In this document: in pieces, positions 14,745 to 22,582 of the stretch
Position numbering within the stretch: the stretch's first letter is position 1
Layout of the letters: every line of letters starts with the position of its first letter
Origin: an uncultured Lachnospiraceae bacterium
GTDB taxonomy: Bacteria > Bacillota > Clostridia > Lachnospirales > Lachnospiraceae
Reading direction: 5' to 3'
Assembly (NCBI GenBank): GCA_946631165.1
Contig: CAMOZZ010000006.1
Coordinates: forward strand, 1 to 33,719
DNA: 33,719 nucleotides
Notes under the pieces: generated by a model
Told to the model about the DNA's origin: nothing
Databases searched by the model: none
The model's input: only the letters and a program-made list of their open reading frames with translations
Made by a program: the position numbers and the translations under genes

Positions 14745-15162
14745 CTGTTGCGGAAAGTCTGTCGTTGACATCGGATATATCAGTGATGCCTCCGTTCATG
14801 CACGAGATTACTTCCAGATCCCTGGGATCCCGGGGATACAGATCTCTGTGCCCGAATGCCTTCAATATCCTGTCCGCTGATTTGACATCTGTCCTGAGCG
14901 CCAGGCAGATCATGATGATCACATCCCGGGAGGGGGAAGTCTTTGTGCCGCTCAGAATATCATAGATATAAGATCTTGAAAGATAACCCTGGCAGGAGCG
15001 AACAACATCTGCCGGCGTTGTTTCTTTATGATCATGCAGCCATGCATCGATAAGCTCCCGCCCGGACCGCAGAATGTTTTCCTCTGAGACAGCAGCTGCA
15101 GAATCCGTCCCGGAAGCGTTCAGAAGGCGATGATTAAGATCTGTAGTGGAATCCTTGTACAT
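14722..15162 (-). CDS. Small XRE-like helix-turn-helix protein, divergent from the kinase gene
   Basis: ATG at 15162 preceded by AAAGGAG (minus strand). TPADVVRSCQGYLSRSYIYDILSGTKTSPSRDVIIMICLALRTDVKSADRILKAFG resembles an XRE/Cro HTH; conserved-looking tail LYPRDPRDLEVISCMNGG...NDRL. Confidence 0.7.
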   Translation of the reverse strand: MYKDSTTDLNHRLLNASGTDSAAAVSEENILRSGRELIDAWLHDHKETTPADVVRSCQGYLSRSYIYDILSGTKTSPSRDVIIMICLALRTDVKSADRILKAFGHRDLYPRDPRDLEVISCMNGGITDISDVNDRLSATGNRLLGE

Positions 15163-15249
15163 GATATGCTCCTTTCGCCGTCTTGCGAATGTGTTCAATC
15201 CGATGTAATATTAGCATAATTCCGATATTCTGAACAGAGCGCTATCCTG

Positions 15250-15605
15250 TGAGAGCCGGCATTACGTATGCAAATTGTTCATTTTTATGATGCGTCCGTA
15301 AAAAGGCAGCTGCAGGAGGAGCGAAGAACCCGGAAATTACGTATGCAAGGGAAGATAGAAGAGAATGCGTCCGTAAAAAAGCAGCCGCAGGATGCGTGAA
15401 GCGCCGGGAAACTACGACCGCAAACGAAAGAATACGAGATTGCGTCCGTAAAAAGACAGCCGCAGGATGTGTGAAGAGTCCGGAAACTACGTACGCAAAC
15501 GGAGGAATACGAGAGTGCGTCCGTAAAAAGGCAGCCGCAGGCGAAGTGAAGAGCCTGAAAACTACGTACGCAAGGGAAGATCTCTGAACCTGTGTACGTA
15601 AACAG
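15250..15605. repeat. Tandem repeat array with an exact 75-bp period (four full units plus two partial flanking units)
   Basis: TGCGTCCGTAAAAA starts at 15291, 15366, 15441 and 15516, with the degenerate TGTGTACGTAAAC at 15591: all spaced exactly 75 bp. The second motif ATTACGTATGCAA / CTACGTACGCAA has the same phase and also occurs at 15261 upstream of unit 1. Confidence 0.97.
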
Positions 15606-15616
15606 AGGTAAAACAA

Positions 15617-16828
15617 GTGAGTATGTCTCTGGAATCTGAAAAATATGAGGTCTTATCCAGGCTGAAGGAAGGCAAGGATGTCTGGCTGGTAAAGAATCAG
15701 CGGGACGGCCGTTTGTATGTCAGGAAATGTGTCCGTAATTATGATATCGAAGTATACAGACACCTGATGGCACTGGACCTTCCGGGACTGCCGCATATCG
15801 TCAGTATTTCTGAAGAAAATGATTCGCTCGTTATTATTGAAGAATACATCCATGGAATGACAGTAGATGAGATATTGGAAAAAACCGGTCCGTTTCCATT
15901 TGAGGATACCCGACAGATCATGCTCGCTGTCTGCACACTGCTGTCACAGCTCCATTCACAGGTTCCGCCGATGATCCACCGTGATATCAAGCCGTCAAAC
16001 ATCCTGATCGGGCAGAACAAAGAAGTCTGGCTGCTGGATTTCAATGCTGTGAGGGAACTCAAGCCGGACAGTAACCGCGACACCAGGCTGATGGGAACGC
16101 CGGAGTTCGCCGCGCCGGAACAGTATGGTTTCGGACAGTCTGACGTGAGAACAGATATTTACGGCCTCGGCGTCACGATGAATGTGATGCTTACCGGGGA
16201 ACTGCCCTCTGTAAGGAAACCGGACAGACCGATCCGTACGGTCATAGAAAAGTGCATCAGGCTTGAACCGGAAGACCGGTTCGGAAATGTGGATGAACTT
16301 GCAAGAGTCCTTCAGAATGTGAAGGAAACCGTTGTCCCCGATGAGGATCCCGGAACTGACGGACAGGCAGCCTTCCGGAAACGGTTTGCTGCTTATGCAG
16401 AAGCGTTCAGCCGAAAAATGCCGGAAGCTTATGTCGGCAATGAAGATCTGAAGGCAGATTTAGACAGCGATCTTCCTCCGGATGTGACGAAATCCTTCCT
16501 GCCGGTAGGATTCAGAAGCAGAAATATCCTGCACATGATCACGGCTGTTCTGGGTTATCTTTTCATTGCCTGGATGAGCATAACCGTCGAATGGACGGAG
16601 AACGGAGTCCCGGGAGATACGTTTTATCAGATCTACAGCGGGATCATGTGGTTCTGCACCTGTGTGTTCACGGTATTCTGGCTGGGCAATTACAGAAATA
16701 TCCGGGGACGGTTTCCCGGGTGCCGGCGCGGAGGGCTGATCGGGTCGCTGGCTGTCCTGTCCTGGGGAATGGTGCTGGCGTTTCTGGTGGTCGTGCTGTT
16801 CGCACTTGTACTTTCAGTCATAGAGTGA
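15617..16828 (+). CDS. Membrane-anchored Hanks-type Ser/Thr protein kinase with C-terminal transmembrane segments
   Basis: IIEEYIHGMTVDEIL, MIHRDIKPSNILI (HRD loop), LLDFNAV (DFG replaced by DFN), GTPEFAAPEQYGFGQSDVRTDIYGLGVTMNVMLTG; two or three hydrophobic helices at the C-terminus. Start may be GTG 15617 or ATG 15623. Confidence 0.88.
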   Translation: MSMSLESEKYEVLSRLKEGKDVWLVKNQRDGRLYVRKCVRNYDIEVYRHLMALDLPGLPHIVSISEENDSLVIIEEYIHGMTVDEILEKTGPFPFEDTRQIMLAVCTLLSQLHSQVPPMIHRDIKPSNILIGQNKEVWLLDFNAVRELKPDSNRDTRLMGTPEFAAPEQYGFGQSDVRTDIYGLGVTMNVMLTGELPSVRKPDRPIRTVIEKCIRLEPEDRFGNVDELARVLQNVKETVVPDEDPGTDGQAAFRKRFAAYAEAFSRKMPEAYVGNEDLKADLDSDLPPDVTKSFLPVGFRSRNILHMITAVLGYLFIAWMSITVEWTENGVPGDTFYQIYSGIMWFCTCVFTVFWLGNYRNIRGRFPGCRRGGLIGSLAVLSWGMVLAFLVVVLFALVLSVIE

Positions 16829-20497: not shown

Positions 20498-22582
20498 ATG
20501 CAGGAAAAGCTGAATGAGTTATCGTTGGCAGAACTTCGTGCACTGGCGAAGGAACTGGGGCTTAAGGGGATCAGTTCGTTAAGAAAGGCTGAACTGGCAG
20601 AGGCTGTCAGCAGACATCTGCCGGGAGCGAAGATGAAAGAGGTTGGGGATGCGGCGGTTCCGGAAACGCTGCCTGAAGCAGAAAAGAAACCGGAAGCAGC
20701 TGTGAAAGCGGAAGAATCCTCCGGCGTCAGCAATAGACCGAAACCTGAAGCGGCAAAGGGAAAGAACAGGAAAGCTTCTTCCGGGAAGAAAAAAGAACAG
20801 CTTGTTTCGCCTGAATCGGAAGCCGCCGTGAAGAAGCCGGAAGAACAGGCCATACCTGAAGCGGAAGCCGCCGGGAAGAAGCCGGAAGAGCCGGCTGTAT
20901 CTGAAGCGGAAGCCGCCGGGAAGAAACCGGGTGAAGCTGTGAAAAAGGAGTCCGGCAGACAGCAGTCTTCAGACCGCGGTCAGAGAAGCAGAGACCGCAG
21001 ACAGCAGCCGGAAAGACGTCAGAACCAGAGCGGCCGGGACCGCAGACAGGAACCCGGAAAGAATGAGCGGCGGATCCGCCGGTTCGGTTATTCCGAGGCG
21101 GCAGAGGATCAGATTTCGGGAAATGAACGTGCAGCCGTAAAAGAAGAACAGAGCGGAAACAGGGAAAATGAAAGCGTAATGATCATCGGAACGCGTGAGC
21201 CGGAGAATGTACCTGAGACTGCTGTGCCGATTACGGGTGATATTCCCGGGAACATTGCCGGGAATTCCGGTACTGCGGAAGACCAGGGCATGCAGCGGGA
21301 GACCGGATCTTCCCGGCAGGAGCCCCGGTCCCTGCAGCAGGAAAGCGGATTCGTGCATCAGGAGAACAGGCCTTTGCAGCAGGATAACCGGACATCCCAG
21401 CGGGAAGACCAGGACCAGAACCGCGTCCGGAAGAATAATCAGAACCTGAAGAAGCTGGATTCAGGCCAGGAAGCCTATGGTATCCTTGAAGTCATGCCGG
21501 AAGGCTACGGTTTTATCCGCAGTGACAATTATCTGCCGGGCGAAGAGGATATCTATGTATCCCCTTCGCAGATCCGCAGATTCAACATGAAGACCGGAGA
21601 TTTCATCGCGGGAAACATCCGCGTCAAGACCGGTACGGAGAAATACGCCGCACTGCTGTATGTACAGGCTATTAATGACGAGGAACCGGAAAAAGCGGCC
21701 AAACGCGAAAATTTCGAGGATCTTACGCCCATCTTCCCGAATGAACGCCTGCATCTGGAGCGGCCGGGCGGATCGGTCGCCATGAGGATCGTGGATCTGC
21801 TTTCGCCTGTCGGCAAAGGCCAGAGAGGGATGATCGTTTCGCCGCCCAAGGCCGGTAAAACGACGCTCTTAAAGGAGATCGCGCTGGCAACACAGACAAA
21901 TCATCCGGATGTGCATATCATTATTCTGCTCATAGATGAACGTCCCGAGGAAGTAACGGATATCAGGGAAAGTATTCCGGGAGACAATGTAGAGGTCATC
22001 TATTCAACCTTTGATGAAGAACCCGAGCATCATAAACGTGTGGCGGAAATGGTCCTCGGTCGCGCCCAGCGTCTCGTGGAGCACGGCAGGGATGTCATGA
22101 TCCTGCTGGATTCCATCACGCGTCTTGCCAGAGCATACAATCTGACAGTAGCCCCCAGCGGCAGAACGCTTTCCGGCGGTCTTGATCCGGCAGCGCTGCA
22201 TATGCCGAAAAAATTCTTCGGCGCAGCCAGGAACATGCGCGAGGGCGGCAGCCTGACGATCATGGCGACTGCACTTGTAGATACGGGCAGCAGGATGGAC
22301 GATGTCGTATTTGAAGAATTCAAAGGTACGGGAAATATGGAACTGGTGCTTGACAGAAAGCTCTCGGAACGCAGGATCTTCCCGGCGATCGACATCATCA
22401 AATCCGGTACAAGAAGAGATGATCTGCTGCTGACGAAGGAAGAGCAGGAAGCTGTTGCAACAATTCACAGAGGCATGCACGGCATGAAACAGGAAGAGGC
22501 AGTTGAGGAAGTCCTCAGGCTCTTTACGCGCACCAGAAATAATGCTGATTTTGTCAGGATGGTTAAAACGATCAGACTGTAG
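20498..22582 (+). CDS. rho: Transcription termination factor Rho with a long low-complexity N-terminal insertion
   Basis: ATG 20498 after GAGAGGAAATT; Rho_N (LNELSLAELRALAKELGLKGISSLRKAELAEAV), RNA-binding domain (YGILEVMPEGYGFIRSDNYLPGEEDIYVSPSQIRRF), Walker A PPKAGKTTLLKEIA, LIDERPEEVTDI, SGGLDPAALHMPKKFFGAARNMREGGSLTI. Confidence 0.96.
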   Translation: MQEKLNELSLAELRALAKELGLKGISSLRKAELAEAVSRHLPGAKMKEVGDAAVPETLPEAEKKPEAAVKAEESSGVSNRPKPEAAKGKNRKASSGKKKEQLVSPESEAAVKKPEEQAIPEAEAAGKKPEEPAVSEAEAAGKKPGEAVKKESGRQQSSDRGQRSRDRRQQPERRQNQSGRDRRQEPGKNERRIRRFGYSEAAEDQISGNERAAVKEEQSGNRENESVMIIGTREPENVPETAVPITGDIPGNIAGNSGTAEDQGMQRETGSSRQEPRSLQQESGFVHQENRPLQQDNRTSQREDQDQNRVRKNNQNLKKLDSGQEAYGILEVMPEGYGFIRSDNYLPGEEDIYVSPSQIRRFNMKTGDFIAGNIRVKTGTEKYAALLYVQAINDEEPEKAAKRENFEDLTPIFPNERLHLERPGGSVAMRIVDLLSPVGKGQRGMIVSPPKAGKTTLLKEIALATQTNHPDVHIIILLIDERPEEVTDIRESIPGDNVEVIYSTFDEEPEHHKRVAEMVLGRAQRLVEHGRDVMILLDSITRLARAYNLTVAPSGRTLSGGLDPAALHMPKKFFGAARNMREGGSLTIMATALVDTGSRMDDVVFEEFKGTGNMELVLDRKLSERRIFPAIDIIKSGTRRDDLLLTKEEQEAVATIHRGMHGMKQEEAVEEVLRLFTRTRNNADFVRMVKTIRL
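20818..20949 (+). repeat. In-gene tandem repeat, 45-bp period (15 aa), within rho
   Basis: GGAAGCCGCCG at 20818, 20863 and 20908; encodes (P/S)E(S/A)EAA(V/G)KKPEE... three times. Confidence 0.85.

Follow-up and report, generated by a model that had tools for sequence, protein, structure and literature searches.

The 454-bp spacer between the start codon of a small HTH-like gene and the GTG of a Ser/Thr kinase gene holds an array of five units with an exact 75-bp period, and what looks like a private operator of the kinase locus turns out to be part of a family of arrays scattered over intergenic regions. The spacer lies in a stretch of 33,719 nucleotides from an uncultured Lachnospiraceae bacterium, hereafter the window. 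We consider it rather likely that the family is helix-phased intergenic DNA bound by a putative sequence-specific protein.

The first core of the window array, TGCGTCCGTAAAAA(A/G), starts at 15291, 15366, 15441 and 15516, and a degenerate copy, TGTGTACGTAAACA, follows at 15591, also in the 75-bp step. The second core opens each of the five elements listed in Table 1 (at 15413 it reads TACGACCGCA); it is in phase with the first and begins one unit earlier. These positions confirm the preliminary description, which had reported 75-bp steps of the first core between 15291 and 15591 with a degenerate last copy, and a second core in the same phase with one extra copy upstream, now placed at 15263. 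The two cores are one 10-mer in inverted copies, TACGTACGCA being TGCGTACGTA on the opposite strand, and the repeat unit can be written as TACGnnnGCA + 18 bp + TGCnnnCGTA + a 37-bp linker. The array is real and beyond chance: TRF reported it at 15290-15580 (period 75, 3.9 copies, score 363), the lag-75 autocorrelation of the spacer was 0.62, whereas 1000 shuffles reached at most 0.38 at any lag, and none of these shuffles contained an element. The last element ends 17 bp before the kinase GTG. No further elements were found in the rest of the window, outside the kinase spacer.

Table 1. Features of the window (positions in the window) and arrays found elsewhere in the same genome
Feature	Position	Strand	Description
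HTH-like protein, 146 aa	14722..15162	-	weak Cro/C1-type resemblance
Element 1	15263..15300	.	TACGTATGCA - 18 bp - TGCGTCCGTA
Element 2	15338..15375	.	TACGTATGCA - 18 bp - TGCGTCCGTA
Element 3	15413..15450	.	TACGACCGCA - 18 bp - TGCGTCCGTA
Element 4	15488..15525	.	TACGTACGCA - 18 bp - TGCGTCCGTA
Element 5, gene-proximal, degenerate	15563..15600	.	TACGTACGCA - 18 bp - TGTGTACGTA
37-bp linkers	15301-15337, 15376-15412, 15451-15487, 15526-15562	.	alternate with elements 2-4
Ser/Thr protein kinase (PF00069)	15617..16828	+	start GTG 15617 or ATG 15623
Array	between cobS and cobQ		8 elements, period 74-75 bp
Arrays	two places on contig C2		up to 9 units each
Array	adjoining 2-oxoacid oxidoreductase genes
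Array	after pgm
Array	C71		arms TACGGACGAA/TTCGTCCGTA
Arrays	C95 and C139

The window array belongs to a scattered family, because the same arrays adjoin unrelated genes in its own genome (2.2 Mb, 75% complete; counts rest on pattern searches). The pattern TACGnnnRCA, a gap of 8-38 bp and TGYnnnCGTA found 31 elements, versus 2 for the reversed control pattern, and the gap was exactly 18 bp in 31 of the 31, although 8-38 bp was permitted. About ten such arrays are present, and their contexts vary: upstream of a gene, within a co-directional gene group, or between convergent genes. At the kinase and at cobQ the last element ends some 17-25 bp short of the start codon, and is therefore probably transcribed there. 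We looked for an empty cobS/cobQ site in other members of the genus and obtained none, since cobQ is organised differently there. CobQ of this genome and of two sister species has an extra N-terminal part (L021:206-2410), which in other genus members is a separate upstream ORF.

Among 11 species of the genus, three carry arrays: the own species and two others (G003 and G010). All three have an array at the kinase locus, with five, two and three elements in spacers of 460, 236 and 288 bp, respectively, and likewise at cobS/cobQ. Copy number, whose variability had been raised as a check on the array, thus differs between species at shared loci, the kinase locus among them, and changes in place, by whole units. 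Arrays were also found beyond the genus, in further genera of Lachnospiraceae and in a second clostridial family, several of the hosts coming from the rumen. Arms and periods differ in other genera. In G410 the arms read TACGCGCAAA and the period is 64 bp; in UBA1255 (G431, apparently the same genome as G813) and G758, of the other clostridial family, the arms read TACGGCCG(A/C)A and dozens of units follow at 53-54 bp. In that family (f38) arrays were present in only 2 of 16 genomes, so presence is patchy. When 85,462 species were scanned for a pattern of three arms, 14 stretches were returned from a handful of genomes, mostly rumen MAGs of Lachnospiraceae or Clostridiales plus Fusibacillus kribbianus; a few of the 14 are probably chance matches. 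Fusibacillus kribbianus, a cultured isolate, has elements of the form TACGGCTGCA - 17 bp - TGCAGCCGTA in four places (L147-L150), mostly outside arrays and with similar loops; its elements are few, and single or degenerate.

The arms are 17-19 bp apart in almost all elements, other genera included. Over 32 arrays the distance from element to element was 53-54, 64-65, 74-76 or 85 bp; the means of successive classes lie 10.65, 10.3 and 10.3 bp apart, with a best-fitting period of 10.4 bp. A step of about 10.4 bp is one turn of the DNA helix. For four collapsed classes drawn at random the fit has a p of about 3e-4, a strong rather than exact value, as the classes were collapsed after inspection of the data. 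The arms hold 0.79 bits of information on average versus 0.17 bits in the interiors (20 arrays). Whole-turn spacing occurs together with conserved half-sites.

The clearest comparison is offered by two orthologous arrays, C95 in the own genome and C137 in G010, whose flanking proteins are 88% and 68% identical. Identity is 77% in the arms, 37% in the loops and 32% in the linkers, and loops and linkers are near saturation. Loop lengths are nevertheless 18/18 in all five elements and linker lengths 26/26, 47/47, 27/27 and 26/36; the sole length change is therefore exactly 10 bp. Unselected sequence at this divergence should gather many small insertions and deletions. As the order of linkers is irregular, the array cannot simply have been replaced by units of a regular 75-bp array. 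Constraint on spacing, suspected in the preliminary description, is strongly supported by the loop lengths, the helical-step periods and the conserved lengths in C95 and C137. Intergenic repeats are usually defined by their sequence; here the sequence saturates and the length is kept to the base pair. With one helical turn as the only change, the pair is an uncommonly direct sign from evolution that protein sites are helically phased in vivo. Just upstream of the two arrays there are copies of another interspersed intergenic repeat, CTGTCATCCTGAGGAGCGGAGCGACGAAGGATCC (L022:4815-5110 and L076:3630-3800). After the arrays comes a conserved promoter-like region, in which the palindrome CTTAAAC..GTTTAAG lies close before TATAAT (L022:5545-5580 and L076:4343-4400).

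From these features we infer a bound protein. Each element offers two inverted 10-bp half-sites with centres about 28 bp apart, a geometry that would suit a dimer whose DNA-reading heads are set apart. From one element to the next there are 5, 6, 7 or 8 helical turns, which would place all bound dimers on one face of the DNA; there they could touch each other and wrap or loop the intergenic region, with local DNA architecture or tuning of nearby promoters as the possible outcome. More tentatively, a dedicated protein of some rumen Clostridia, perhaps acquired horizontally, may coat the arrays in at least ten places on the chromosome and fold them into a repeated nucleoprotein structure. If true, the arrays would represent a new type of element for bacterial chromosome architecture or regulation, with evolution preserving spacing and not sequence.

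It counts against a bound protein that no binder was found and that no candidate is obviously common to all array genomes. A 264-aa nuclease-like protein adjoins arrays in two genera (L069:2881-3678 on contig C2 of the own genome; L155:2842-3636 in RUG842): on C2 arrays stand on both sides of it, and on RUG842 C232 it is 16 bp from an array. The two proteins are about 48% identical, have no family match in Pfam or NCBIfam, and resemble in their C-terminal part a region of plasmid-borne AAA ATPases and helicases; the predicted structure is of low confidence (pLDDT 55). We regard this protein as a lead for the binder, whose adjacency to arrays may be due to chance. The arrays themselves have a signature that can be searched for, and the biochemical test by which to locate the binder is obvious.

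The main rival to a protein-bound array is a selfish or by-product repeat of the BIME kind, in which a recombinase or transposase reading the arms copies and tandemly amplifies the palindromic units without host function, the spacing reflecting the geometry of the copying complex. The patchy distribution (3 of 11 genus genomes, 2 of 16 in f38) suits it too, as do high copy numbers in a few genomes, occurrence in every kind of intergenic position, change of copy number in place, and arrays broken at contig ends. We nevertheless think it unlikely: the kinase and cobS/cobQ positions are common to three species and the C95/C137 locus to two, and the C95/C137 spacing outlasts the complete loss of interior sequence. 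Like the REP/BIME sequences of E. coli and Stenotrophomonas, which are associated with RAYT genes, the arrays are made of clustered intergenic palindromes, regular and alternating in orientation, and are patchy among species (PMC2817692, PMC3733652). BIMEs bind gyrase or IHF (PMC2817692), and REP/RAYT palindromes are defined in part by a tetranucleotide, GTAG or CGTC, that marks one of their ends (PMC3733652). No such tag was found in the flanks of the elements. REP loops, moreover, are mostly 2-5 nt, whereas the symmetric arms here are 17-19 bp apart, and the fixed helical period is a further difference. A PF01797 gene was not seen in the own genome (75% complete), and the RAYT-size PF01797 genes of four other array genomes (G410, G430, G431 and G432) have no TACG elements nearby, several being flanked by other palindromes. 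RAYT transposases were rejected as partners of the arrays, as the RAYT genes present carry other palindromes or none. The palindromes at four RAYT loci (L172, L173, L175 and L177) are GC-rich, in three of GGGGACGG/GGGAGACAGGGGACGG type, and apparently form a REP family of their own.

The two arms of one element are closer to each other than to arms taken from other arrays (p < 2e-4) or from other elements of the same array. Both a hairpin and a two-fold protein site are compatible with this resemblance. Under the hairpin alternative, each unit would fold into a stem of 10 bp closed by an 18-nt loop, lying in a leader, an intercistronic region or a 3' UTR, and would affect the stability or translation of the mRNA; the complementary, co-varying arms and the location of arrays within the cobS-cobQ unit and close ahead of the kinase start codon speak for it. 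Several results make it improbable. Mismatches between arms show no excess of G-U and include many A-G and C-A, folding of the window array was unremarkable against shuffles (z -1.43 on the plus and -1.09 on the minus strand), and Rfam models gave only chance-level matches over 15000-15800, leaving the hairpin without an Rfam family. Of 58 flanks near array ends, 16 carried promoter-like sites directed away from the array and 2 carried sites directed towards it, although an outward bias is partly expected for any intergenic feature; many arrays therefore lie upstream of promoters and not in leaders. Linkers fixed in steps of a DNA turn would be needless in unpaired RNA. For these reasons (no G-U excess, folding, promoter direction and helical steps) we prefer the reading as protein-bound DNA. 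The folding, the arrays that lie upstream of promoters or between convergent genes, and the helical steps of the period leave the earlier idea of a repeated structured 5' UTR unsupported as a general function.

Least probable is that the array serves as an operator for the divergent HTH protein, which would regulate its own gene and the kinase. In its favour, the array sits between the HTH and kinase genes in three species, and within the genus an HTH orthologue is present in exactly the three species that carry arrays. Arrays of the same kind, however, occur at many other loci, and no HTH homologue was found in the four array-bearing genomes named above; Fusibacillus kribbianus has a weak one (29% identity). 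The arrays are confined neither to the HTH gene's side nor to genomes with the HTH gene. The protein itself had no match in Pfam or NCBIfam, and its model matched Cro/C1-type folds weakly. It is a neighbour of the array and not a general partner of arrays, although it could additionally bind the array at its own locus. The preliminary description had proposed such an operator and asked whether arrays always stand beside HTH/kinase pairs. They do not, and their neighbours are unrelated genes, the outcome which that description had named as refuting its proposal. Of its options the architectural element, or a protein-binding array not tied to the HTH protein, has held up best. The last element before the kinase and before cobQ, which are unrelated genes, contains a near-palindrome, CTGTRTACGTAAACAG, directly upstream of the ribosome-binding region (window 15590-15606 and L021:2421-2437).

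Other origins were rejected. Phage records gave no match, viral contigs none, and a single pattern match looked like chance. A minus-strand ORF of 124 codons over the window array follows from a unit of 75 bp, or 25 codons, and is a by-product, because other arrays have a period of 74 bp; periods of 74, 64 and 54 bp mix the frames and rule out a coding origin. CRISPR arrays resemble these in having palindromic parts and in being regular, at periods of 54-75 bp, but here many small arrays occur per genome, no cas gene is among the neighbours examined, and the interiors are related, diverged copies rather than unique spacers between constant repeats.

The arrays are a new variety of intergenic palindromic repeat; in the literature searched we found no earlier description of helix-phased inverted-repeat arrays. 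The MIRU-VNTR minisatellites of mycobacteria are likewise intergenic and tandem, with units of comparable size, a location in operons in some cases, and locus-dependent copy number. Unlike these, the units described here contain inverted half-sites and conserve their spacing over saturated sequence. Helix-phased operator or centromere arrays, such as parC/ParR, tubC/TubR and the separated half-sites of AraC or BirA type, also repeat their sites along a single helix face, and BirA-like operators have arms of about 10 bp that are about 16 bp apart. The present family differs from them in its many chromosomal arrays per genome, the lack of linked partition or biotin genes, and its sequence. A different tandem repeat, of 45 bp (15 codons), lies at 20810-20930 of the window, in the N-terminal part of a Rho termination factor gene.
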